This document shows positions 24,162 through 37,536 of a stretch of 64,000 nt of DNA, in pieces. Origin of the DNA: Halogranum gelatinilyticum. GTDB lineage: Archaea; Halobacteriota; Halobacteria; Halobacteriales; Haloferacaceae. A model generated the notes under the pieces. That model saw only the letters and a list, made by a program, of their open reading frames with translations, ran no database searches and was not told where the DNA came from. The translations under genes and the position numbers were made by a program. Within the stretch, counting starts at the first letter, position 1, and every line of letters begins with the position of its first letter. The stretch is taken from NCBI RefSeq assembly GCF_900103715.1, contig NZ_FNHL01000002.1, forward strand, positions 558,001 to 622,000. Reading direction: 5' to 3'.

Positions 24162-27100
24162 CTAGTCTGCTCGGTCGTCGAACTGTGCGTGGTAGCGGTT
24201 CTGCACTTCGACGACGTGGTCGCGGTTCTCGAGGTCGTAGTAGTGCATCCCGTACAGTCGCTCGGCGATCTCCTCGCGCGTCTCGATGTCGGCGGGAGTG
24301 TCACCGGCCGGGAAGGGCTGGCGGTTGTAGATGGCCTGCACCTGTCCCGTCGTCTCGGTGCTCAGATCGGCGAACGCTACCCCGTACTTCGCCTGTGAGA
24401 TCTCCTCACGGCTGTATTCGGGGTCGGTCGGCAGTGGGCCGAACTGTGCGTCGTAGGCGTTCTGGACCTCGATCAGCTGTTCTGCCGTCAGTTTGGCTGC
24501 GAGCGTCGACTCCTGCGCTCGCATATCGTACAGCCGCTCGGCGATCTCTTCGCGCGTCTCGATGTCACCCGGGGTGGCACCGTCGGCGAAGGGCTGGCGG
24601 TTGTAGATGTCCTGCACCTGTCCCGCCGTCTCGTAACTGACCTCGGCGAAGTCGTAGCCGTACTTCGCCTGCGTGATCTCGTCACGGGTGTACGTCTTGT
24701 CGCCGTCACCGTCGCCACCAGTGGGCTCGGTCACGGTGAGAGTGGCGGTCTGAGCGTCGTCGTCGGTGTAGACACCGTGGGTGTACTCACCGGCTGCGAG
24801 ACCGCTCGTGTCGATATCTTCGAAGGTCACCGTCTGGCTCTCACCGCCAGCGAGGGTGACGTCCTGACTGGAGAGGACCGTCCCGTCGACTTGGAAGGAG
24901 ACCGATTGGGTCCCTTCCTCGTCACCGGTGTTCTCGACGGTCGCACTGACGTCGATGACGTCACCTTGCGTGACGGTCACGTCCATCGGATTCAGGTCCG
25001 ACACCTCGAAGTTCGCCGGGTCGCTGGGTGCGGCCGGTGCGTCGACGGTCAACGTCGCAGTCTGTGAGTCGTCGTCGGTGTAGATGCCGTGGGTGTAGTC
25101 ACCCGGTGCGAGACCGCTCGTGTCGATGTCCTCGAAGGTCACCGTCTGGCTCTCACCGCCAGCGAGGGTGACATCCTGACTGGAGAGGACAGTCCCGTCG
25201 ACCTGGAAGGAGACCGATTGGGTCCCTTCCTCGTCACCAGTGTTCTCGACGGTCGCGCTGACGTCGATGACGTCACCCTGCGTGACCGTCACGTAGGTCG
25301 GGTTCAGGTCAGACACCTGGAAGTCCGCTGGGTCGCTGGGCGTCGCTGGTGCATCGACGGTCAACGTCGCAGTCTGTGAGTCGTCATCGGTGTAGATGCC
25401 ATGGGTGTAGTCACCTGGAGCGAGGCCACTGGTGCCGATGTCTTCGAACGTCACCGTCTGGCTCTCGCCACCAGCGAGGGTCACATCTTCGCTCGCGATA
25501 GCCGTACTACCGACGCGGAACTCGACACGCTGCGTGTCCGAGTCGTCGCCGGTGTTCTCGACGGTCGCGCTGACGTCGATGACGTCACCCTGGGTGACAG
25601 TCACGTCCGTCGGATTCAGGTCCGACACCTGGAAGTTCGCCGGGTCGCTGGGCGTCGCTGGTGCTTCGACCGTCAACGTCGCGGTCTGGGAGTCGTCATC
25701 GGTGTAGACACCGTGGGTGTACTCACCGGCTGCGAGACCGCTGGTATCGATGTCCTCGAAGGTCACCGTCCGGCTCTCACCGCCAGCGAGGGTGACATCC
25801 TGACCAGTGAGTGCCGTCCCGTCGACACGGAACTCGACGCGCTGCGTGTCCGAGTCGTCGCCGGTGTTCTCGACGGTCGCGCTGACGTCGATGACGTCAC
25901 CCTGCGTGACCGTCACGTCGGTCGGGTTCAGGTTCGACACCTGGAAGTTCGCCGGGTCGCTCGGGGAACTGCCGCTGTCGACGGTCAGTGTGGCCCCACT
26001 CATGTCGGTGACCGTGTAACTGTGCCCCGCCTCGGTGCCGAGCGCCGTGACGCTCAGGCCGAGGTCGGTCGTGCCGGCATCGTCGCCTTCGACGGTGACC
26101 GTCGCGATGACGACGCTGCCGGTGTTGTCGGTGTCCGCCAACGCCGCGACAGCCCGCGCCGACGAGCCGTCGGCCGCGATGGTGACGTCGGACGTCTGGT
26201 CGGACGGTGAGCCATGCAACTCGACGTCGGTGATAGAGGCGACCGACGGGGTCGCGACCGTCACCTCGAAGTCGTAGGCACCGACACCGCCGTCGGCACT
26301 CTCGACGACGACGTCGAAGGTCGTCGAGGAGCCCTCGTCGATTCCGTCACTCGCCGGATTCATCGAGACGGTCGTCTCGGGGTCGGGCTGCGGTTCCGGG
26401 TCCGGGTCCGGGTCAGGGTCCGGGTCCGGGTCAGGGTCCGGGTCCGGGTCAGGGTCCGGGTCCGGGTTCTGGTTGTTCGTGTCCGTGTTCTGGACGGTGA
26501 CGACGACGGTATCGGTGTCGCTCGCCTCGCCGTCACTGACATCGACCTCGAAGGTCAATGCCGTGTCGCTGTCGACGTCTGGTGCCTCGAAGGTCGCCGT
26601 GCTGGTGTCGTCACCGGTGAGCGACACGTCGGGGCCGTCCGTCTGGCTCCAGGCGTAGGTCAACGCGTCGCCGTCGGGGTCGCTGGACCCCGTCGCGTCG
26701 AGCGTGACCGTCGTCTCTTCGTCGACCGTCTGGTCGGCACCGGCGTCAGCCGTGGGTGGCCGGTTGGCCGGTGTCGGGTCCGTGACGGTCAGCGTCGCGC
26801 CGTTCGCCTCGGTGACGGTGTAGCTCTGACCGCTCTCGGTACCGAGCGCCTCGACAGACAGGCCGAGGTCGGTCGTCCCGGCCGCGTCACCTTCGACGGT
26901 GACCGTCGCGATGACGACGCTCCCGGTGTCGTCGGTATCCGCCAGTGCGGCGACTACCGAGACGGCGGAGCCGTCGTTCGCGAGGGTGACGTCCGAGGTC
27001 TGTGCCGGCGGTCCGCCACCCAGGGAGATGTCAGTGATCGATGCGACGGTCGAATCGGCGACTGTCACGTCGAAGTCGTAGGCACCGACACCACCGTCGG

Positions 27101-27344
27101 CGGTGTCGACGACGACATCGTACGTCGTCGTGTCTCCGGGGTCGATCGTTGTACTCTGCGGTGCGAGGCTCACGGCGGAACTGGGCTGTGCTTGTTGGGC
27201 AGCGACAGCTGGTGCCGTCACACTTCCTCCGAGAACCCCGAACGGAGCCGCGTTTACCGCGACCGCACCGACGACGAGTGCCGTCAGTGCGAGCGCGATG
27301 AGGCTCTTCGTGGTGAGGACGTTCTGTCCGGTTCGTGTACTCAT
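24162..27344 (-). CDS. Secreted cohesin-repeat protein with CARDB array and novel helical C-terminus
   Basis: 1060 aa. The order is: signal peptide (1-about 50); cohesin-like domain (52-190, with GGVGAYDFDVTV and GSVVIATVTVEG); PKD/REJ Ig domain (195-288, RPPTADAGADQTVDE); Asp-Pro repeat linker (293-322); second cohesin-like domain (323-457); four near-identical CARDB-like repeats of 104 aa (461-564, 565-668, 669-772, 773-874); and a C-terminal domain (885-1060) of two similar units, each made of two half-units with 'TREEI' and 'Q..YN/QN.Y..QF'. It has no PGF-CTERM or membrane anchor. It has cohesins but no dockerin, so I infer a scaffold that receives dockerin partners encoded upstream. It is the last gene of the four-gene set, 61 bp after its neighbour. 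Confidence 0.8.
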   Translation of the reverse strand: MSTRTGQNVLTTKSLIALALTALVVGAVAVNAAPFGVLGGSVTAPAVAAQQAQPSSAVSLAPQSTTIDPGDTTTYDVVVDTADGGVGAYDFDVTVADSTVASITDISLGGGPPAQTSDVTLANDGSAVSVVAALADTDDTGSVVIATVTVEGDAAGTTDLGLSVEALGTESGQSYTVTEANGATLTVTDPTPANRPPTADAGADQTVDEETTVTLDATGSSDPDGDALTYAWSQTDGPDVSLTGDDTSTATFEAPDVDSDTALTFEVDVSDGEASDTDTVVVTVQNTDTNNQNPDPDPDPDPDPDPDPDPDPDPDPEPQPDPETTVSMNPASDGIDEGSSTTFDVVVESADGGVGAYDFEVTVATPSVASITDVELHGSPSDQTSDVTIAADGSSARAVAALADTDNTGSVVIATVTVEGDDAGTTDLGLSVTALGTEAGHSYTVTDMSGATLTVDSGSSPSDPANFQVSNLNPTDVTVTQGDVIDVSATVENTGDDSDTQRVEFRVDGTALTGQDVTLAGGESRTVTFEDIDTSGLAAGEYTHGVYTDDDSQTATLTVEAPATPSDPANFQVSDLNPTDVTVTQGDVIDVSATVENTGDDSDTQRVEFRVGSTAIASEDVTLAGGESQTVTFEDIGTSGLAPGDYTHGIYTDDDSQTATLTVDAPATPSDPADFQVSDLNPTYVTVTQGDVIDVSATVENTGDEEGTQSVSFQVDGTVLSSQDVTLAGGESQTVTFEDIDTSGLAPGDYTHGIYTDDDSQTATLTVDAPAAPSDPANFEVSDLNPMDVTVTQGDVIDVSATVENTGDEEGTQSVSFQVDGTVLSSQDVTLAGGESQTVTFEDIDTSGLAAGEYTHGVYTDDDAQTATLTVTEPTGGDGDGDKTYTRDEITQAKYGYDFAEVSYETAGQVQDIYNRQPFADGATPGDIETREEIAERLYDMRAQESTLAAKLTAEQLIEVQNAYDAQFGPLPTDPEYSREEISQAKYGVAFADLSTETTGQVQAIYNRQPFPAGDTPADIETREEIAERLYGMHYYDLENRDHVVEVQNRYHAQFDDRAD
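24723..25964 (-). repeat. Four tandem 312-bp coding repeats
   Basis: Equivalent sequence recurs every 312 bp, for example the 'gtgac.gtcacgt' core near 24973, 25285, 25597 and 25909. Each unit encodes one 104-residue CARDB-like domain of the scaffold protein. High nucleotide similarity suggests recent duplication or gene conversion. A related unit lies in the adjacent gene (about 28050-28360). Confidence 0.9.
26379..26468 (-). repeat. Asp-Pro linker microsatellite
   Basis: GGGTCC/GGGTCA hexamers with an 18-bp higher period encode about thirty residues of alternating Asp and Pro, a rigid acidic linker between the PKD domain and the second cohesin-like domain. Copy number is likely to vary by slippage. 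Confidence 0.9.
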
Positions 27345-27405
27345 AGTATCCCTTTCGCTGCTGTTACCGCTGTTCTCGCCACTCGCGTGCTACTGGGTGA
27401 GCGCA

Positions 27406-28845
27406 TCAGGCACCACCGTTTATTAGGAGGTAGTACTGCGCCTGGACGTCGACGATGTCGAACGTCGCGTCGCCGTTGTAGTTGAACTTCTCAGGATTGT
27501 TCTGGATGACCGGGTCGTTGATGTTCGCGAACGTAGCCTGGATGTCGACGATGTTGAAGACACCGTCGCCGTTCGTGTCTTCGTACAGTCCGTCACCGTT
27601 GAGGTCGTTCGGGGAGTTCTGGAAGTTGCCGATCGGTGCGAGGTCGACGGCGGTCACGGTCGCACCACTGGTGCTGTCGACCGTGTAGCTGTTGCCGTTC
27701 TCGTCACCGAGTGCAGCGACGTCGAGACCGAGATTTGCCGTCCCTTCACCCTGACCCGTCACCTCGATGGTCGCGATGGTGACGCTGCCGGTGTTCGCCG
27801 TGTCCGCGAGTGCAGCGTTGATGGTGACCGACGAGTTGTCGCTCGCGTAGTCGGTCTCCAGCAAGCCGGGGCTTCCCTGCACCTCGACGTCCGTGATAAT
27901 CGCGACGGACGGGTCATCGACGGTCACGGTCGCGGTGAAGGCACCGACACCACCGTCGGTGTTCTCGACGACGATGTCGTACGTCCCGGTGTTTCCGAGC
28001 GTGATCTCGGCGTCCGTCGGCGACAGGCTCACGTCGGTCGACTTGACCGCCGGGGCCGGGTCGACGCTGAGGGTGGCAGTCTGTGAGTCGTCGCTGGTGT
28101 AGACGCCGTGGGTGTAGTCGCCCGGTGCGAGCGTTGAGGTGTCGATGTCCTCGAAGGTCACCGTCTGGCTGGCACCCGCGGCGAGCGTCACGTCCTGGCT
28201 GGTGAGAGCGGTGCCGTCGACCTGGAAGGAGACCGATTGCGTCCCGGCTTCGTCGCCGGTGTTCTCGACAGTCGCGCTGACGTCGATGACGTCACCCTGC
28301 GTGACCGTCACGTCGGTCGGGTTCAGGTTCGACACCTGGAAGTTCGCCGGGTTGACGACCGGTTCCTCGACGGTGATGGTCGTCGAGTCGGTGCTCGTGA
28401 GACGGTTACTGGTCGCAGGCTCGATGACCGAGCCCTCCGACGTCACCGTGTAGTCACCCGGTGCCGCGTCGCTGGGGACGAGGACGGTGTAGGTGTGGGT
28501 GTACGTACCGGTCACCCCGTCCATGTCGGACAGCGTGATTCCACCGAGGAAGGTCGTCTGTGCGGCGACGTAGTCCCAGCCGTTGGCTGCGGTCGTCGCG
28601 GTGATCGTCCACCCGTCGGGGAGACTCGGCACCATCGCAGGCGCGTTCGCCTCTGTCTGTGTGAACTCCACCGTGATCTGGACCTCGTCGCCGGGAGCGG
28701 CGGTGACGCTGTTTTGGGCGTGTGAGACCGTGACGCCGGGTGCTGCGACGACCACGCCTACCGGTCCGAGGACCGAGAGGACGAGGGCGAGTGCGACGAG
28801 TGCGGCCGTTGTTTGTCTGAGTCGCTGCTGGATTTTGTTCGTCAT
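27406..28845 (-). CDS. Secreted protein with CARDB, cohesin-like and dockerin domains
   Basis: 479 aa from ATG 28845; further upstream the frame is basic and non-secretory. Order: Sec signal peptide (1-35); beta-sandwich domain with alpha-galactosidase NEW3-like character (36-162, ending TTITVEEP); CARDB-like repeat nearly identical to those of the next gene (163-265); cohesin-like domain (268-400); dockerin (404-479) with loops D423TNGDGVFNIVD434 and N455YNGDATFDIVD466 plus a preceding DLNGDGLYED. The second loop starts with Asn instead of Asp. Having both cohesin and dockerin, it could bridge or polymerise within the complex. It is 61 bp upstream of the 1060-aa scaffold gene and shares its module sequences. 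Confidence 0.82.
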   Translation of the reverse strand: MTNKIQQRLRQTTAALVALALVLSVLGPVGVVVAAPGVTVSHAQNSVTAAPGDEVQITVEFTQTEANAPAMVPSLPDGWTITATTAANGWDYVAAQTTFLGGITLSDMDGVTGTYTHTYTVLVPSDAAPGDYTVTSEGSVIEPATSNRLTSTDSTTITVEEPVVNPANFQVSNLNPTDVTVTQGDVIDVSATVENTGDEAGTQSVSFQVDGTALTSQDVTLAAGASQTVTFEDIDTSTLAPGDYTHGVYTSDDSQTATLSVDPAPAVKSTDVSLSPTDAEITLGNTGTYDIVVENTDGGVGAFTATVTVDDPSVAIITDVEVQGSPGLLETDYASDNSSVTINAALADTANTGSVTIATIEVTGQGEGTANLGLDVAALGDENGNSYTVDSTSGATVTAVDLAPIGNFQNSPNDLNGDGLYEDTNGDGVFNIVDIQATFANINDPVIQNNPEKFNYNGDATFDIVDVQAQYYLLINGGA

Positions 28846-29072
28846 TGGTTGGATACTGTCAGTTGTCGTTCTGTTGGTCGGTGTGCGGTTCGCGTCTCGG
28901 AGCCAGTCGGCTCCGCCCCGTTTGACCGACGAGAGAGGGTGCCTCGGGAGGCGTGGCGTCGACGCAGTCGGTGTGGTTACCCCCGATGGACACCGGTCGC
29001 CGACGGATGCCGTACCAGACCGGTTCTGGTCCGTCATCGGTCCGACTCCGAGCGTCGCCACTGCCGTAGCAG

Positions 29073-29095
29073 GACTCGTCCCCGCTGGACGAGTC
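29073..29095 (-). terminator. Stem-loop in the 309-bp spacer between two cohesin genes
   Basis: GACTCGTCC, five-base loop, GGACGAGTC: a perfect 9-bp stem about 60 bp past the stop of the 1282-aa gene (29155). Archaeal terminators depend mainly on T-tracts, and none follows closely, so this may be an mRNA 3'-end or processing structure instead. The rest of spacer 28846-29154 holds no gene I can see; it probably also carries the start region for the 479-aa gene. Confidence 0.4.
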
Positions 29096-29154
29096 GCGAT
29101 GGCGACCGACGACGCGTGCGGAGTGTCTCGTCATTGGTCGGTCGAGCGCCCGCT

Positions 29155-32100
29155 CTACGCGCTGCCCTCCGATTCGATGATTTCGATTGCTCTGATCTCC
29201 GGGTTCTCGAACGCACCTTGCTCGAAGACGACCGTGATGGTGCCGTCGCCATCGTCGGTCGCAGTAAAGCTCTTCAGAACCCCAGTCGCGTGGCCGACGT
29301 CGGCCACGGGGTCGTACTGTTCGAGTACCTGTTGGCCCTCGATGGAGACGTTGAACTGTCGCTGGCCGGGCTCGCTCGCACCGGGGTACGAGTTGCCGAA
29401 GTAGAGTCGGACGTCGACCGTCTGCCCGGAGTCCACCGAGAACGCCCAGGTCATCTCGCCGTAGCGTTCACAGTCGAACACGGCGTCCGGTGTCGACGAG
29501 GGGACGGTGCTCCCGGCCGTGATGGCGTCGCCAGCGCAGTAGTTCCCCGCACCGGTGCTCGCGACAGAGACGAGATACGGCGAACTGGTGTCCCCGACGC
29601 CCGTCCAGTCGGGGCCGTCGCCGGTTGCCGCGACGGTCGTCGCCTCACCCGCGTTCACGCGGTGGAGAATCTGCGGTTCGGTGCTTCCGACTTCCAGGAT
29701 GACCGTGTTCGAGGCCACCCCGGTATCACCGCTGCCGTCCTGGACGGCCGCGACGAAGTAGTTCAGGTTCGTGTCCGAGAGCGTCACCGAGACGGTTGCC
29801 TCGCCGTTCGCGTCGAGCGAGACGGACTGAGTGTTGACCGCCTGAGCGTTGTCGCCCTCGTAGGCGTCGATGTCGTAACCATCGGACGGCGGCGTGCTGA
29901 GTTCCATCTGGATCAGCTGGACCGTTCCGTCCGCCGGACCGCTGAGCGTCAGTGTCTGTGCCGTGTCGCCCACGGTGGCCGCCTCGTGGCCAGGGAAGTC
30001 CGTCGCGGCCAGCGTGACGTCCTGCACGCCGAGCGTAGGTGCGCTCGGGACGACGGACTTCGCGGTGGCCTGCGCGCCACCCGCGCTGCCGTCGCCGAAG
30101 AGGTCGGTCGTCTGGGTCGCCCCGTCACCGTACGAGACGCTCACGGCACTGCCCGCGAGTTCCAGCCCCGAAACGGACCCGGCACCACCGGTCGTGGAGG
30201 CACCTTGGATGGTCGTCGGGTCGATGTCCGTCGAGAAGGTCACGACCTCGCCAGGCTCGAAGTCCCCGAACTCGATGGTCAGGACGTCGTAGCCGTCGGT
30301 GCCGTCGACGCCGTTGTGTGGTTGACTGAACACGTCGGCGTCGGCGGTACTGACGACACCCACGCCGTCACCGGACTCGCTGTCGATGACGAGTCCCTTC
30401 GCGGTCGCGTCACCAGCCGTGCCGGTGGGGTCGAAGACCGCATCCGGGACCGCGCTCTCACTCAGGTCGAACGAGACCGAGGAGATGGGCTGGTCGCCGG
30501 TGTTCTCGATGCTGAACGAACCGCCGTTGAAGGTACTCGCGTCGATGCCCCCGTTGGCGTTGACTGCGATGTCGGCCGAGCCGGGACCGGTGCTACCGTC
30601 GGACGGTGCGATGCCGATCGCCGAGACCTTTGCCTGGTCCACCTCAGCGGTGAACTGGATGTTCAGTTCGCCGTCGGTCACGTCGGCCGTGTAGGTCTTC
30701 GTCGTCGCCGTCGCGGAACCGGCGTCGGCGATGATGTCGTAGTTGTCGAGGACCTGCTGGCCTTCGATTGCGACGTCGAATTCGCGTGCGCCGACGCCGT
30801 TACCGTTCTGCACACCGTGGTAGATTTCGGCGAAGTGGAGCGTGACGTCGTACGCCCCGTTGGCGAGCGGGATGGCGTACTCGAACGTGCCGTACCGCTC
30901 GGTCTGGTAGAGCGTGTCGTCGTCAGTGCCTGCGATCTCGAGACCGTCGCTGGCGAACGGCGTGCCACCGACGAAGTTCACGTCAGCCGCGTAGGTCGTG
31001 CTGTCCGTCGCCGTGTACTCTGCCCCACCCGAGTTCACGTAGAACTCGGTCGGGCCGCTCGACTGTTCGTACTTCAGGACGACGACGTTCGAGGCGTCGC
31101 CCATGTCGCCGGAGGCGACCCCGTGGGCCGCCACGAAGTAGTTGAAGCCGGCTTCGTCACTGTCGTCGGGGCCATTGGTCAGGGTGACCGGCACCGACGC
31201 CTCACCGTTGCCGTCGAGCGTGACGCTGATGTACTCGACGTTCACTGCGTTGTTCGCTTCCAGTGCTTCGATGTCGTAGCCGCCGTTCGGGACGTCGCTC
31301 AGCGAGAGTTCGCCCTCGACGCGCACGAGCGTGACAGTCTCTCCGGGTTCGCCGGTGACCGTCACGGTCTGGGCGGCCTCGGAGACGACCGCGCCGCTGT
31401 GGTAGCCGTCGAGGACGCTGCCGTCGAGGCTGACACCGTCGACACCGATGGTCGGTGCCGGGGCTTCCTCGCCGTCGAGGACGGCGGTCGAGCCACCGAC
31501 GGAGCCGTCACCCATCAGGTTGGCCGTCTGGGACGTGCCGTCCGCGTAGGTGACCGTCACCGTCGAACGGGCGAGTTCCAGTCCGGAGACGGGACCGGCC
31601 TCCTGGGAGCTGACCGTCGCGCCCTTGATGCTGGTCGGGTCGTTGTCGGCCCAGAAGGTCGCCGTCTCGCCGGGCTGGAAGTCGCCGAACTCGACGGTCA
31701 TGACGTCGTAGCCGTCGGCACCGTCGACGCCGTTGTGCGGCTGGGAGAACGCCTCGTCCGAGCCGCCGCCGGCCGTCGTGATTCCCGTTCCACCGTCGCT
31801 GACGATGTTGAGGCCCTCACCGGTCGGGTCGCCGGCCGTCCCGTCCGGGTCGAAGACCATATCCGGCATACTCGCCGTACTCAGGTCGAACGAGACGGAC
31901 ACGATGTCGGTCTCACCGGTGTTCGTCACCTGGTAGGAGCCGAAGCCGTAGGTCGTCTGGTCGATGTTCGTGCTGTCCGGCGTCACCTCGACCAGCGACG
32001 AGCTGGTGAGGCTGGGGGCGACCGTGACGGTCGCCGTGTCGGTCGCTTCGGGGTTCGTGTACTCCGTGTGCACCATGTCCGCCACGGTGACGGTGACGGT

Positions 32101-33003
32101 GTGTTCGCCCGCCGCGACGTTCTCGAACGTGTACGAGCCGTCGATGGGCTGGCCGCCGACGTAGTCGTTGTCGTCGAGTTGGACGTGGACGTGGTCGGTG
32201 TCCATCGCCTTCGTCCCGTCCCACGTGACGGTGACGTTCGACCCGTCGACGGAGGTGCTGGTAATCTGCATCGACGCCGGAGTGCTCACGGTCGCACCGG
32301 TCGCCCACATGTTGGTGAGCTGTTGGAGCATCGAGAGGTCGATCGTCTCGCCGCCGGTGTTCGGGACGGCGGTCTCGGTCGCCCACCAGTTGGTAGCGAG
32401 CTGCAGCTCCGAGATCTCGATGACCGTGTCGTCGCCGGTCGAGTCGGCACTGGCGACCGCCTGTTCGATGGACAGGTCGTCGGTCGCCCCGACGGTCACC
32501 GTGGCGTCGCTCGTGCCGGTGATGTCGTAGTCCTCTGCGGCGTCCGTGCCGATGTTCACCGACTGGTCGTCGACCGAGAACGTCGCCGTTCCGGCCGCGT
32601 CGGCTGCCACCGTGACCGTGGCGAGGACGACCTCGCCGGTTCCGGTCGTGTCGGACGCGAAGACGGCGACTGTCGCCGACGAGCCGTCGGCAGCGATGGT
32701 AATGTCACTGACGCTCTCGTCGGGGTCGCCGGCCAGATCGACGTCGGTGATGGACGCGACCGTCGGGTCGTCCACCGAGATGGTGAACTCGTAGGAGCCG
32801 ACGCCCTCCGTCGCCTGTGTGGCGACGACGTCGACTGTCGTCGTGCTCCCGGTGCCGACCGACTGACTGGCCGGAGCGATCGCTACCTGCGTACTCGCCG
32901 CGAGCACGACGCTGGTGGCTCCCGCCGAGACGACGAGAAGCACCGCCATCGTGAGCACGAGGAGTGTTCTGAGTGTTGGTGTATGGGTTGGTTTGCGTTT
33001 CAT
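29155..33003 (-). CDS. Secreted cohesin/dockerin-like protein with two malectin modules
   Basis: 1282 aa. Order: signal peptide (1-35); cohesin-like domain (37-172, GVGSYEFTISV); a compact dockerin-like duplicated helix-loop segment (176-238: VIEISELQLATNWWA and IDLSMLQQLTNMWA, Ca ligands partly lost); Fn3-like domain (about 243-328); then a unit of about 470 residues present twice: a beta-rich region (about 335-650 and 808-1106, each with FSQPHNGVDG and an EFGDF segment) followed by a malectin domain (652-799 and 1110-1282). Malectins bind glucosyl sugars. The duplicated segment diverges enough to be old. No anchor or catalytic domain is visible. It is predicted to be a carbohydrate-binding, cohesin-bearing partner of the dockerin proteins. 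Confidence 0.8.
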   Translation of the reverse strand: MKRKPTHTPTLRTLLVLTMAVLLVVSAGATSVVLAASTQVAIAPASQSVGTGSTTTVDVVATQATEGVGSYEFTISVDDPTVASITDVDLAGDPDESVSDITIAADGSSATVAVFASDTTGTGEVVLATVTVAADAAGTATFSVDDQSVNIGTDAAEDYDITGTSDATVTVGATDDLSIEQAVASADSTGDDTVIEISELQLATNWWATETAVPNTGGETIDLSMLQQLTNMWATGATVSTPASMQITSTSVDGSNVTVTWDGTKAMDTDHVHVQLDDNDYVGGQPIDGSYTFENVAAGEHTVTVTVADMVHTEYTNPEATDTATVTVAPSLTSSSLVEVTPDSTNIDQTTYGFGSYQVTNTGETDIVSVSFDLSTASMPDMVFDPDGTAGDPTGEGLNIVSDGGTGITTAGGGSDEAFSQPHNGVDGADGYDVMTVEFGDFQPGETATFWADNDPTSIKGATVSSQEAGPVSGLELARSTVTVTYADGTSQTANLMGDGSVGGSTAVLDGEEAPAPTIGVDGVSLDGSVLDGYHSGAVVSEAAQTVTVTGEPGETVTLVRVEGELSLSDVPNGGYDIEALEANNAVNVEYISVTLDGNGEASVPVTLTNGPDDSDEAGFNYFVAAHGVASGDMGDASNVVVLKYEQSSGPTEFYVNSGGAEYTATDSTTYAADVNFVGGTPFASDGLEIAGTDDDTLYQTERYGTFEYAIPLANGAYDVTLHFAEIYHGVQNGNGVGAREFDVAIEGQQVLDNYDIIADAGSATATTKTYTADVTDGELNIQFTAEVDQAKVSAIGIAPSDGSTGPGSADIAVNANGGIDASTFNGGSFSIENTGDQPISSVSFDLSESAVPDAVFDPTGTAGDATAKGLVIDSESGDGVGVVSTADADVFSQPHNGVDGTDGYDVLTIEFGDFEPGEVVTFSTDIDPTTIQGASTTGGAGSVSGLELAGSAVSVSYGDGATQTTDLFGDGSAGGAQATAKSVVPSAPTLGVQDVTLAATDFPGHEAATVGDTAQTLTLSGPADGTVQLIQMELSTPPSDGYDIDAYEGDNAQAVNTQSVSLDANGEATVSVTLSDTNLNYFVAAVQDGSGDTGVASNTVILEVGSTEPQILHRVNAGEATTVAATGDGPDWTGVGDTSSPYLVSVASTGAGNYCAGDAITAGSTVPSSTPDAVFDCERYGEMTWAFSVDSGQTVDVRLYFGNSYPGASEPGQRQFNVSIEGQQVLEQYDPVADVGHATGVLKSFTATDDGDGTITVVFEQGAFENPEIRAIEIIESEGSA

Positions 33004-33141
33004 TTCGTGTCCTGCGATTGTGGGTTGGTTCTGTGGGGTTCTGTGCTGGATTCGGTCGGCTGTGTCCGACCCGAGTGGCTGCCGTGGGCCTCTGGAGTGA
33101 GCGTACCCGTGGCTCCTCGTGTCCGAAACCGAGAGCGGGAA

Positions 33142-36100
33142 TCAGCCGCTCCCGGACGTCGTCGTGTCGTCGAGCGATTCGATGAACAGTGCCTGCACGT
33201 CGACGACGTTGACTTCGCCGTTGCCGTTGAAGTCGAACGCCTCCGAGTAGTTCTGGACCTCGTCGCTCTGGTAGTTCTGGAAGAACGCCTGCACGTCGAC
33301 GATGTTGAACTCACCGTTGCCGTTGACGTCCTCGTAGAGGCCGTCGCCGTCCGTGTCGGTCGGTGGGTTCTCGAAGCTCCCGACGGGGCCGGGGGCACTC
33401 TCGACCGCGACGATCTCGATGGCGTTGAGCTGGGGGTTCTCGACGTCGTGGATGAACACGATGTCGAGGTCACCGTCGGACCCGGCAGTCACGGTGAACG
33501 ACTCCATGCCAGCGTTCTGGTCGCCGTAGGCGGCGATGGGGTCGAATCCGGACGCTTGGGTCGTGCCTTCGATGACGATGTCGAAGACGCGGTCACCGGG
33601 ATCAGCCGTCCCCGAGTAGCCGTCGTAGAAGTACAGGCGGACCTCGTAGGTCTGGCCTGCCTCGATGCCGTCGGCGAACTGCCACGCCATCTCCGGGTCG
33701 GCAGGTGGGTCCCACCGCTCGCTGTTCCAGAGCTCCGACGGCGTGTCGGCGGGGACGGACGAGTCGACGCTGTTCAGTCCACCGCCGTACGCGCCAGTGT
33801 TGTCGCCACCGGCGACGAGATACTGACTCGGTGCCGCTTCGGTGTCGGTGCTCCACGCTGGACCGCCGTCGGCCGCAGCGACTTCGGCGCCGCCCGCGTT
33901 CACGCGGTAGAGGACGTCACCCTGCGCGAGCGTCGTGTCCTGCACCGTCACGTCGACCGTGTCGGTGTCGGAGAGGTCGCCGTCGGAGACGCTCAACTCG
34001 AAGGTGAGCGTCGTGTCGCCGTCGACCTCGGGTGCCGTGAACGACACCTGTTCGCTGTCGCTCACGTCGAGCAGTCCGTCGGGCGTGCCCGCCGTCTGCG
34101 TCCACGTGTAGCCGAGTTGCGCTCCCTCGGGATCCGAGGAGCCCGAGCCGTCGAGCGTGACGGTCTGTCCCTCGTCGACGACGATGTCCGCACCGGCGTC
34201 AGCCACGGGCGGCTGGTTCGCGGGTGGGGTGACGTACTCGACGTTGAGGTCGGTCCACGTCGCGTCGAAGGTCGAACTGGCTTGGTAGGACGTTGCGATG
34301 ACGCCGACCGCCATCGCGCTACCGTCGCTGCTGTCGAGCCAACTTGCTGGAATCGCCGTGGTCTCGACGACCGTCTTTGCGCCACCGTCGATACCGTACT
34401 CGGCGGTGACTGCGACGTCGTCGCTGCCGTCGTTCGGCGTCGGGTCGGTCGTCGGGTCGACCGTTAGGTACAGGTCGGTGTTCGTCGATGGCCCGGTGAC
34501 TCCGCTGTCGTCGGGCTGCGCGACGCTCGAGAAGCTGCCACCGACTTCCTTCGCGAACTGCACACCACCCGTGCCGCCGTTCGCGGCGACGACGAGCTTG
34601 GCGTAGTTGTCCTGGTCGCCGTTCCCGACGTAGATGCCCATCGCCTGGTAGTTCTCCGGGTTGTCGGGGAACCCGTTGACCGTCGTCGAGACCGTGAAGG
34701 GCTCGCTCGGTGCGTCGATACCGCGCTGGAAGGCGAACTGCTGGCTGTTCTGCGCGTTGACCGCGTCACCAGCCGGGACGCTCTCGACTGTCAGCACCTG
34801 TGCCGCGCCACCGACAGTCATCTGCTCGGTATCGTAGAGGATGAGGTAGTCGTCGCCGTTGGTCATGAGACCCGTCCAGCCCTGTCCGGAGTCACCGAAG
34901 AGTGCCGTCTCCGAGAAGTCCATCTGGACCGGGAGGGCCGTGCCGACGCCGTTGGTCGCGTCGAGTGCGAACGGGTCCTCGGTGTCGACGATGCCGTCAC
35001 CGTCGTCGTCGGGGTCGTTCAGGTTAGACGTGCCGTCGTCGTCGAAATCGGCGGGCGTCGACGCGGCCGAACACGGGTTCGTGTCGTTGTCGATCTCGTC
35101 GGCGTTGTCGTAGCCGTCGCCGTCCTCGTCGAGAGACGCGTCGTCAGCACCCGTACACTGCGGGCCGGTCGTGCTGTCGTAGTCGTTCGGTTCGAAGACG
35201 TTGATTCCACCGCGGGCGGTCCAGACGGTGCCCGGGAAGGGACCGCCGTCGCCCACGGTGGTGATGCCGAGCGCGTCGATGTCACTGAAGAAGTTGCCTT
35301 CCTGGTTCGTGACGTCGTCACCGGCAGCGTTGAGTTCGACGCGCTCGACGGAGCCGCCGTTCTCGACGACGAGCAGGTCACCCTGCATCCCACCGCCGAA
35401 GTTCGAGGCGGTGTACTCGTCGATACCGCCGGTCCAGCCGAAGGTGTTCCCGATGGAGTTGTCCTGGGTCGGATCCTGGTAGTCACACTCGATCGGGTTC
35501 ACGAACGAGGCTGGAACCGGACTGTTCTCTTCGGTGATGTCCAGCACCACGTTGCCGGCACTGTCGTAGATGTCCGCACCGGTCGGGTTACCCCGAATCG
35601 GCGCGGCGTGTCCACCGTACGAACCTTGGGTCGCGAGGTGGAGCTGGTCGCCGGTGCTGTAGCTTTCGTCCTCGTTAGGCTCGTTGGTACAGATACCCGT
35701 CGGCCCCTCGTCAACCGGGATGCCACCCCAGCCACCGTTCGGTCCGTTGTCGATGACGTAGAGTTGGTCGTCCTCCGAGAGGACGAGGTCGTACGGGTTG
35801 CGGTAGCCGGAGGAGTAGACTTGGACCGGGCCGTTCTCTACCCACTTCGCCTGGTTGACCCCGTCGTCGCCGCCGAACGGCAGGTCGTCGCCGTCCGTGG
35901 CGTCGTCGTTCTGGATGGTCGGGATGCCGTAGTAGAACGTCAGGTCAGGGTAGTTGGCGTTGTAGTCCTGGAGGTTCTTCGCGCCGAAGCTCTCGACCTG
36001 CGCGAGGTCGATAGTGAGCACGGCAGCCGACAGCGCGTACTCGGGGGTGTAGCCGAAGTTGTTGCTCGGTGCACCCTTGTTCGCGTGGCCACCCGATGCG

Positions 36101-37536
36101 ACGTACAGCGTGTTGCCGTCGTCGCTCAGGTCGAGCCCGTTCGTCGCGTGGTTCTCCTCGGAGCGTGGCAGGCCGAGGACCAACACTTCGTGCGTGATCT
36201 CGCTGTCGGCGAGGACGCCGTCGCCACCCCAGTCGAGGGTGAGCCGCGAGACCGCGCCGGAGTTGGTGTCGACGCTGTCGTCGTCGGTACCGACCTTGAT
36301 GGTCGGGTCGCTCGACGAGACGTAGAGGATGGGTTGACTGGCCGTCCCACCCACCGTGATGCCCGTAATCTGTCGAGTCCCCTCGCCAGCGTTGAGGACC
36401 CCGTTATCATCGTGGTTCGGGATGTCCTGAATCAGTGCGATCTCCTTCTCGTAGACGACCGAGTAGGAGTTCGCTCCGTTGCGCTCGATCTCGAGCGCGT
36501 AGACCATCCCGTTCTGCTTGGTGACGTAGAGTCGGTCGTCGGGACCGAACTCGAGGGCCGTGAGCGACCCGTCGCCGAAGCCCTGGAGACTGCTCTTGCC
36601 GAAGCCGATTTCGGCCGTGCTCGTCCCCTCACCGGAGAGGTCCACCGCCAGCGGCGAGTTCGTCCCGGTGTGGGTGATCTCGAGCGTTCCAGCCTTGGCC
36701 TGGGCGTCCTGTGGTGCGAACGACACCGGGATGTCAGCGGAGTCGCCCGGCGCGAGCGACGTCTGCGAGGGCGACCCCACAGTGAACGCGCTGTCGCCGG
36801 ACGTCGAGACGCCGGTGATGTCGATGCTCGGGTCGGTCGTACCACCGAGGTTGGTCACGGTGACCGTCTCCGTCTCGGTGTTTCCGACGAGGACGCTTCC
36901 GAAGTCGAGGCTCGACTGTGCACCGAGCGTGTCGGACTGCGGCTCGGCCGCGATGATCTCGATCGCAGAGACCTTCGCGTTGTCCGTCACCGTGGTGAAG
37001 TCGATGTCGAGCGTGCTGTCGGTCGGCGTGACGGTGTAGGACTTCATCGTCCCGACGTCGTGGCCGACCTCGGCGTGGATGTCGTAGGCACTGAGGACCT
37101 GTTTGCCCTCGATGGCCACGTCGAACTCGCGAGCACCGTCGCTGGTCGCGAAGATCTCAGCGAAGTAGAGTCGAACCTGATACTGCTGGCCGGCCGCCAC
37201 CGAGAAGCTCCACTGTGTGTTGCCGTAGCGCTCGGTCTGGAAGACGGCTGCCGGTGTACTGCTCGGCACCGAACTGTCGGTCGTAATCGAGTCCTGAGTG
37301 GAGTACGTGTTCGTACTGCCACCGACGGTCACCCCAGTTGTCGACCCGGGTGCCGTCCAGTCGTCGCCACCGTCTGTCGCGGCGACGGTGTTTGTCCCCC
37401 CGTTCACGCGGTACTCGACTGTCCCTGCCGTCTGTGCGAACGCCGGACCTGCGACGAGTGCCACGGTCCCGGCGAACATCGACGTAACCAGCAGGAAGGA
37501 GACCACCACCACGGCCGCCCGTCTCACTCGCGTCAT
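33142..37536 (-). CDS. Secreted glucose/sorbosone-dehydrogenase-type propeller with malectins and dockerin
   Basis: 1464 aa, first gene of the set. Order: signal peptide (1-35); malectin (39-196); choice-of-anchor-D/ASPM-type Ig domain (205-305); six-blade propeller of the glucose/sorbosone dehydrogenase (PQQ-sugar dehydrogenase-like) family (312-790) with HATNGLDLSDDG (His463, candidate catalytic base), SGYRNPYDLVLSEDDQLY; calcium-rich thrombospondin-3-like segment (798-857); LamG-like beta sandwich (868-1102); PKD/REJ domain (1108-1199); second malectin (1207-1379); dockerin (1390-1455) with loops D1403VNGNGEFNIVD1414 and D1435FNGNGEVNVVD1446. It probably oxidises or binds sugars outside the cell and docks onto the cohesins encoded downstream. 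Cofactor use (PQQ) is unproven. The stop is 138 bp from the next start. Confidence 0.84.
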   Translation of the reverse strand: MTRVRRAAVVVVSFLLVTSMFAGTVALVAGPAFAQTAGTVEYRVNGGTNTVAATDGGDDWTAPGSTTGVTVGGSTNTYSTQDSITTDSSVPSSTPAAVFQTERYGNTQWSFSVAAGQQYQVRLYFAEIFATSDGAREFDVAIEGKQVLSAYDIHAEVGHDVGTMKSYTVTPTDSTLDIDFTTVTDNAKVSAIEIIAAEPQSDTLGAQSSLDFGSVLVGNTETETVTVTNLGGTTDPSIDITGVSTSGDSAFTVGSPSQTSLAPGDSADIPVSFAPQDAQAKAGTLEITHTGTNSPLAVDLSGEGTSTAEIGFGKSSLQGFGDGSLTALEFGPDDRLYVTKQNGMVYALEIERNGANSYSVVYEKEIALIQDIPNHDDNGVLNAGEGTRQITGITVGGTASQPILYVSSSDPTIKVGTDDDSVDTNSGAVSRLTLDWGGDGVLADSEITHEVLVLGLPRSEENHATNGLDLSDDGNTLYVASGGHANKGAPSNNFGYTPEYALSAAVLTIDLAQVESFGAKNLQDYNANYPDLTFYYGIPTIQNDDATDGDDLPFGGDDGVNQAKWVENGPVQVYSSGYRNPYDLVLSEDDQLYVIDNGPNGGWGGIPVDEGPTGICTNEPNEDESYSTGDQLHLATQGSYGGHAAPIRGNPTGADIYDSAGNVVLDITEENSPVPASFVNPIECDYQDPTQDNSIGNTFGWTGGIDEYTASNFGGGMQGDLLVVENGGSVERVELNAAGDDVTNQEGNFFSDIDALGITTVGDGGPFPGTVWTARGGINVFEPNDYDSTTGPQCTGADDASLDEDGDGYDNADEIDNDTNPCSAASTPADFDDDGTSNLNDPDDDGDGIVDTEDPFALDATNGVGTALPVQMDFSETALFGDSGQGWTGLMTNGDDYLILYDTEQMTVGGAAQVLTVESVPAGDAVNAQNSQQFAFQRGIDAPSEPFTVSTTVNGFPDNPENYQAMGIYVGNGDQDNYAKLVVAANGGTGGVQFAKEVGGSFSSVAQPDDSGVTGPSTNTDLYLTVDPTTDPTPNDGSDDVAVTAEYGIDGGAKTVVETTAIPASWLDSSDGSAMAVGVIATSYQASSTFDATWTDLNVEYVTPPANQPPVADAGADIVVDEGQTVTLDGSGSSDPEGAQLGYTWTQTAGTPDGLLDVSDSEQVSFTAPEVDGDTTLTFELSVSDGDLSDTDTVDVTVQDTTLAQGDVLYRVNAGGAEVAAADGGPAWSTDTEAAPSQYLVAGGDNTGAYGGGLNSVDSSVPADTPSELWNSERWDPPADPEMAWQFADGIEAGQTYEVRLYFYDGYSGTADPGDRVFDIVIEGTTQASGFDPIAAYGDQNAGMESFTVTAGSDGDLDIVFIHDVENPQLNAIEIVAVESAPGPVGSFENPPTDTDGDGLYEDVNGNGEFNIVDVQAFFQNYQSDEVQNYSEAFDFNGNGEVNVVDVQALFIESLDDTTTSGSG

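Follow-up and report, generated by a model that had tools for sequence, protein, structure and literature searches.

Organization of the locus

The window analyzed here is a 64,000-nucleotide stretch of the Halogranum gelatinilyticum genome (contig NZ_FNHL01000002.1, positions 558,001 to 622,000). Four minus-strand ORFs spanning window positions 24162-37536 code for proteins of 1464, 1282, 551 (or 479) and 1060 aa, which we call p1464, p1282, p551 and p1060 in their order on that strand. Each protein has a Sec-type hydrophobic N-terminus, as read from the sequence. In p551 this N-terminus coincides with the start of the 479-aa version, which uses an ATG at 28845. An earlier note on this DNA had described four adjacent, same-strand secreted proteins, and the ORFs and their N-termini bear this out. 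Pfam recognized malectin, PKD, CARDB and dockerin domains in the window proteins. In total, the locus holds four cohesin-fold modules, two dockerins, four malectins and a beta-propeller resembling glucose/sorbosone dehydrogenase (GSDH). p1464 and p1282 each contain two malectins (E 1.8e-34 and 6.3e-42 with Pfam), matching the number given earlier. The features are as follows.

33142..37536, minus strand: p1464, secreted; malectin, choice-of-anchor D, GSDH-like propeller, TSP3-like acidic stretch, lectin-like, PKD, malectin, C-terminal dockerin (Pfam)
35176..36594, minus strand: GSDH-like beta-propeller of p1464, aa 315-787 (GSDH match in relatives)
33172..33360, minus strand: dockerin of p1464, aa 1393-1455 (PF00404)
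29155..33003, minus strand: p1282; signal peptide, cohesin, ancestral segments, malectin, malectin (Pfam and comparison)
32485..32892, minus strand: cohesin of p1282, aa 38-173, at the new N-terminus from the split (own-genome profile)
27406..29061, minus strand: p551 (479 aa from the ATG at 28845); signal peptide, NEW3-like, CARDB, cohesin, dockerin
27643..28038, minus strand: cohesin of p551, aa 342-473 (AlphaFold and Foldseek)
27421..27609, minus strand: dockerin of p551, aa 485-547 (haloarchaeal dockerin model; below the PF00404 cut-off)
24162..27344, minus strand: p1060; signal peptide, cohesin, PKD, cohesin, four CARDB, helical repeat
26778..27179, minus strand: cohesin 1 of p1060, aa 56-189 (profile, 148 bits)
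25974..26375, minus strand: cohesin 2 of p1060, aa 324-457 (profile, 149 bits)
24165..24692, minus strand: all-helical C-terminal repeat of p1060, aa 885-1060 (AlphaFold)

We regard p551 as adaptor-like and p1060 as scaffold-like. In p1060, a (PD)n simple-repeat linker at 26375-26490 connects the PKD domain to the second cohesin. Large plus-strand ORFs also run across the locus (e.g. 28813-34467, 1884 aa), and we took these to be high-GC shadow frames of the real genes.

Assignment of the cohesin and dockerin modules

Cohesin-like domains had been proposed at four places, two in p1060 and one each in p551 and p1282. The Pfam Cohesin model (PF00963) gave no match at E<=1 in the four window proteins and none at the window in a whole-genome scan. 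NCBIfam was likewise negative for cohesin in these proteins, and we therefore relied on profiles and fold comparison. The cohesin-dockerin segment of p551 was modeled by AlphaFold with a mean pLDDT of 96.4 and a pTM of 0.87 (29 sequences). The earlier note had allowed that the proposed segments might match other Ig-like families; the top 50 Foldseek matches of the p551 module in the PDB are all cohesins (E 3e-9 to 3e-6). The Archaeoglobus fulgidus cohesin 2xdh is among the top matches, at 22% identity.

Profile searches extended these assignments to relatives. A profile of the seven cohesin-like domains in this genome matched 57 of the 119 family genomes, and a 63-row cohesin profile matched 96 of the 243 genomes of the order. 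The p1282 cohesin scored 6.3e-46 with the own-genome model, which already includes that domain. When the 63 related domains were scanned singly, PF00963 was the commonest family match, found by seven of them (best 1.3e-6), and a cohesin elsewhere in the same genome (C2:848516) exceeds its cut-off. Searching the PDB with phmmer, using single proteins or modules, returned no cohesin, and the best PDB match of the 63-row profile was a Ruminococcus flavefaciens cohesin at only E 0.017. Taking the predicted fold together with transitive homology, we assign the window modules as cohesins, even though they fall below the Pfam cut-off. All four proposed cohesins are upheld in this way, with the p551 module as the one modeled.

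Dockerins had been noted in the 1464-aa and 479-aa proteins, and both assignments held. The p1464 dockerin passes PF00404 (26.6 bits against a cut-off of 22.9) and reads as two near-identical calcium-loop/helix halves, NGNGEFNIVDVQAFF and NGNGEVNVVDVQALF. The p551 dockerin is below that cut-off (12.7 bits in the protein scan and 19.2 bits in the whole-genome scan) but scores 82 bits with a haloarchaeal dockerin model. Its second loop is partly degenerate (NYNGDATFDIVD). It is folded in the p551 model, and the dockerin half of the segment has its PDB matches among dockerins and EF-hand proteins. Two more dockerin genes lie elsewhere in the genome. A degenerate dockerin proposed for p1282 was rejected. 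The segment scores about 0.5 bits with the haloarchaeal model and is also present inside an undivided relative of the protein, so we assign it to the ancestral chain rather than to a coupling module. At aa 170-250 of p1282 (32254-32496) there are paired Trp-rich segments, ISELQLATNWWATETAVPNTGGETIDLSMLQQLTNMWATGATV, which are shared with the undivided L199 protein and are not a dockerin by score.

p1464 and p1282 correspond to halves of one exoprotein

We compared p1464 and p1282 to proteins encoded elsewhere in the family. In 15 further genomes the p1464 relative is one uninterrupted chain of roughly 2,000-3,000 aa, and most of these chains run on, in the same order, into sequence that aligns with p1282. 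For example, a 2336-aa protein (L205, putatively from Candidatus Halobonum tyrrellensis) aligns at residues 86-1292 with p1464 2-1200 (66% identity) and at 1370-2336 with p1282 335-1282 (68% identity). In L190, putatively Halobellus captivus, p1464 5-1378 aligns with residues 82-1455 and p1282 aligns from its residue 334 with 1537 onwards. In L199, p1464 1-1382 and p1282 176-800 abut at residues 1444/1447 of the undivided protein. At the junction the window carries additional sequence: a linker and dockerin closing p1464 (~80 aa), a stop codon, a 138-bp spacer and, opening p1282, a signal peptide with a cohesin (~175 aa). Neither the dockerin end nor the cohesin start is found at that place in the undivided relatives. 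These alignments indicate that p1464 and p1282 represent a single exoprotein of ~2,300 aa divided in two.

The chain is single in 15 of 17 genomes and split only in two Halogranum genomes. H. rubrum has the same split, and its copies of the p1464 dockerin and p1282 cohesin are 87% and 71% identical to those of the window. In a tree of the propellers, the two split genomes form a clade nested inside the single-chain relatives. This nesting favors fission over fusion without proving it, since support for some inner branches is moderate (82/84). Other genera mostly have a single chain without a dockerin, followed by a cohesin-dockerin protein and an anchored cohesin. In L201, a dockerin stands at the C-terminus of the undivided chain.

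The note had also identified a sugar-dehydrogenase propeller. Of 17 relatives, 16 match PF07995 (GSDH; best E 1.3e-7); the window copy itself reaches only 21.1 bits, under the 25-bit cut-off, and is embedded in a 1464-aa lectin protein. The His in EENHATNG and the Arg-Asn in GYRNPYD are invariant across the 17 sequences. These residues may correspond to the catalytic His and the PQQ-binding Arg/Asn of s-GDH. In the PDB, every match of the propeller profile was a designed propeller and rested on a short motif of the blade, so this search was uninformative. We describe the p1464 propeller as GSDH-like and as a putative sugar oxidoreductase.

p1060 occupies the position of the anchored cohesin

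The last gene of the Halogranum cluster is p1060, in place of the usual small anchored cohesin. We found no C-terminal membrane helix or recognizable anchor in p1060. Cluster-end proteins with two or three cohesins also occur in Halorubrum, Haloarcula pellucida and Halomicroarcula rubra, and p1060-like proteins in L084 and L086 have three cohesins to the two of p1060. The C-terminal repeat consists of four ~42-aa units (TREEIA..YG..F.ELS.ET...VQ..Y..Q) and is modeled with a pLDDT of 95.3. It has no Pfam match and no fold match in the PDB (best E 2.8). Since no fold relative is available, a role for the repeat as an anchor is a guess. A further suggestion from the TREEIA motifs, that the repeat is an SLH-like wall-binding domain, found no support in the PDB fold search and was set aside. 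Repeats of this type are found in 18 of 119 family genomes, at the C-termini of haloarchaeal secreted or membrane proteins with malectin, CARDB or N-terminal transmembrane segments (e.g. L207-L209, L172).

A two-gene cohesin-dockerin module is widespread in haloarchaea

Haloarchaeal genomes contain a recurrent two-gene module, of which we counted 46 distinct cases. The first gene codes for an exoprotein ending in a cohesin and a dockerin. The second, on the same strand, codes for a small protein in which a single cohesin lies between a signal peptide and an anchor at the C-terminus, either transmembrane or PGF-CTERM-like. Among the 94 dockerin genes that had enough flank to be counted, 52 have a cohesin gene within 400 bp downstream on the same strand, and 27 of these 52 cohesin genes code for a membrane-like C-terminus. 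Cohesins and dockerins also occur together across the 119 family genomes: 45 have both, 12 cohesin only, 3 dockerin only and 59 neither (Fisher p 6e-18, counting the genomes as independent despite their relatedness). Dockerin distances correlate with anchor-cohesin distances (r 0.87), also once the cis cohesin is accounted for (partial r 0.52), a relationship confounded by the shared history of the modules. Fold, profile, gene linkage and comparative genomics together support the existence of a haloarchaeal extracellular cohesin-dockerin system.

The cargo of these modules is varied. PhoX is matched by 15 of 48 dockerin proteins, and others match 5'-nucleotidase, subtilase, PQQ-type propeller or solute-binding protein domains. 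The H. gelatinilyticum genome has two further cohesin-dockerin loci. At one (L007:4356-7288; G000:C2:847355-850287), a Tat-type calcineurin-like phosphoesterase with a C-terminal dockerin is directly followed by a cohesin protein with a TP-rich linker, a CARDB-like domain and a PGF-CTERM-like anchor; the gene before the phosphoesterase codes for a membrane protein ending in the helical repeat. At the other (L008:4353-7787; G000:C3), a PhoX-like protein with a cohesin and dockerin is followed by a 262-aa anchored cohesin, a pair that recurs across many haloarchaea. Some dockerin gene clusters have no adjoining cohesin gene (L117, L125, L126, L137 and L145 from the MAG QS_4_69_34; L087; L093), and these may use a distant scaffold. 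In QS_4_69_34, several dockerin proteins lie on a few contigs. Related cohesin-dockerin proteins are also found in MAGs assigned to Methanofollis, Methanomicrobiales, Methanoregulaceae, Geoglobus, Thermoproteaceae and Acetothermia (L119, L135, L138, L139, L146, L147, L152).

Comparison with known cohesin-dockerin systems

Archaeal cohesin-dockerin pairs are already known. In A. fulgidus, the dockerin Doc75 (ORF2375) and the cohesin Coh76 (ORF2376) bind strongly and specifically (PMC9705933). The haloarchaeal two-gene module, known here from its sequence, resembles this biochemically proven pair: both are archaeal and non-cellulosomal, with the dockerin and cohesin on separate proteins, from consecutive ORF numbers in A. 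fulgidus. The haloarchaeal modules differ in that the cohesin protein usually bears a clear membrane anchor. We know of no split ancestral protein and no malectin or GSDH cargo for the Archaeoglobus pair. According to the passages of PMC9012536 that cite Peer et al. 2009, archaea lack large multi-cohesin scaffoldins, except for the ANME cases added there. The ANME proteins (PMC9012536, PMC5244752) are likewise archaeal and extracellular, include scaffold-like multi-cohesin proteins and have no use in cellulose degradation. As these sources present them in the parts on cohesins and dockerins, their common dockerin cargo is ABC-transporter substrate-binding proteins and some carry S-layer domains, and those parts describe neither a two-gene anchor module nor gene fission.

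The clostridial cellulosome (type I/II) shares with the Halogranum locus dockerin-bearing secreted cargo, a cohesin-bearing scaffold (at the locus, the candidate p1060), the cohesin fold and the two-fold dockerin motif. The Halogranum locus lacks cellulases, as the earlier note had remarked; we found no glycoside hydrolase or lyase catalytic domain in the four proteins. There are only two cohesins on the scaffold candidate, we found neither CBM3 nor SLH, and malectin lectins and a GSDH-like propeller are present instead. The label "cellulosome-like" is therefore only weakly apt: the modules stand as cohesins and dockerins, but the locus does not stand as a cellulosome, given a single scaffold with two cohesins and no polymer-degrading enzyme. 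The open-license papers covered by our search treat haloarchaeal dockerins solely as modules by which polysaccharide-degrading enzymes bind their substrate (PMC10963439, PMC13260240). None of the papers found in that search pairs them with haloarchaeal cohesins.

A model for assembly at the cell surface

We consider it likely that the locus encodes a non-cellulosomal extracellular assembly in which a split protein is rejoined by docking and linked through p551 to p1060. The comparison with single-chain relatives suggests that an ancestral chain, running from a malectin and GSDH-like propeller to a further malectin, was split into two genes. The ancestral gene would have stood upstream of a cohesin-dockerin adaptor and a cohesin with a membrane anchor. 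In the present proteins, p1464 has a terminal dockerin and p1282 an initial signal peptide and cohesin. Outside the cell, the p1464 dockerin would bind the p1282 cohesin with calcium and so rejoin the halves. The p551 dockerin would plug into one of the two p1060 cohesins. p1060 would act as a small scaffold that replaces the membrane-anchored cohesin, and its helical repeat would retain it at the envelope. The assembly would then hold the malectins, which bind sugars, and the sugar-oxidoreductase-like propeller at or near the cell surface. On present sequence comparisons, these are the most likely pairings, with the p551 and p1060 cohesins as candidate competitors for the p1464 dockerin.

The main alternative accepts true cohesins and dockerins and gives them other partners. 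The p1464 dockerin would sit on a cohesin of p1060 or p551, leaving the p1282 cohesin for the dockerin of p551 or one encoded elsewhere. The result would be a small scaffold-type complex in which the two halves of the split protein meet only by way of the scaffold. Such exchange is made plausible by the close relationship between the p1464 and p551 dockerins, which belong to the same haloarchaeal set, as well as by the excess of cohesins at the locus (four, to two dockerins) and the additional dockerin genes elsewhere in the genome. We nevertheless think it improbable, because a dockerin and a cohesin sit exactly at both ends made by the split and are conserved there in two species.

Docking in cis seems still more doubtful. 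Here the dockerin of p551 or of the PhoX proteins would bind the cohesin of its own chain, masking or stabilizing the C-terminus, and the downstream anchored cohesin would be a paralogue with another role. The cohesin does directly precede the dockerin in the 46 modules, and the p551 pair folds as one confident unit. However, the p1464 dockerin has no cohesin in cis, nor does the calcineurin-type dockerin protein elsewhere in the genome, and the Archaeoglobus pair binds in trans. Dockerin distances also show a stronger partial correlation with the trans anchor (0.52) than with the cohesin in cis (0.41), though both values are confounded. That no docking occurs, the cohesin-like modules being plain beta-sandwich spacers and the dockerin-like ones calcium-stabilized C-termini or substrate-binding modules, would agree with the Pfam misses, with the frequent likeness of beta-sandwich families at low identity and with the published assignment of haloarchaeal type I dockerins to substrate binding (PMC10963439, PMC13260240), but the gene linkage and the binding of the analogous Archaeoglobus pair make it unlikely, and the cohesin-specific fold matches, co-occurrence and correlated divergence also stand against it.

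Returning to docking between p1464 and p1282, the chances appear to us evenly balanced that Halogranum has a natural split protein, a giant secreted lectin-oxidoreductase broken into two genes whose lost peptide bond was replaced by cohesin and dockerin ends. To our knowledge, a natural split rejoined in this way is undescribed.

The role of cohesins and dockerins outside cellulosomes has been an open question since their discovery in archaea, and haloarchaea offer a large set in which to test it. Dozens of haloarchaeal dockerin genes, whose cargo includes PhoX phosphatases, lie beside a cohesin gene that is probably their anchored partner, and many are in cultivable genera. Genetic tools exist for Haloferax and Haloarcula. 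The split in Halogranum predicts one particular pair, the p1464 dockerin and the p1282 cohesin, from evolution alone. If the prediction is true, a covalent link would have been exchanged for a docking joint in nature, and salt-stable docking modules would be gained. In effect, evolution would then have applied the "designer cellulosome" strategy to one polypeptide.
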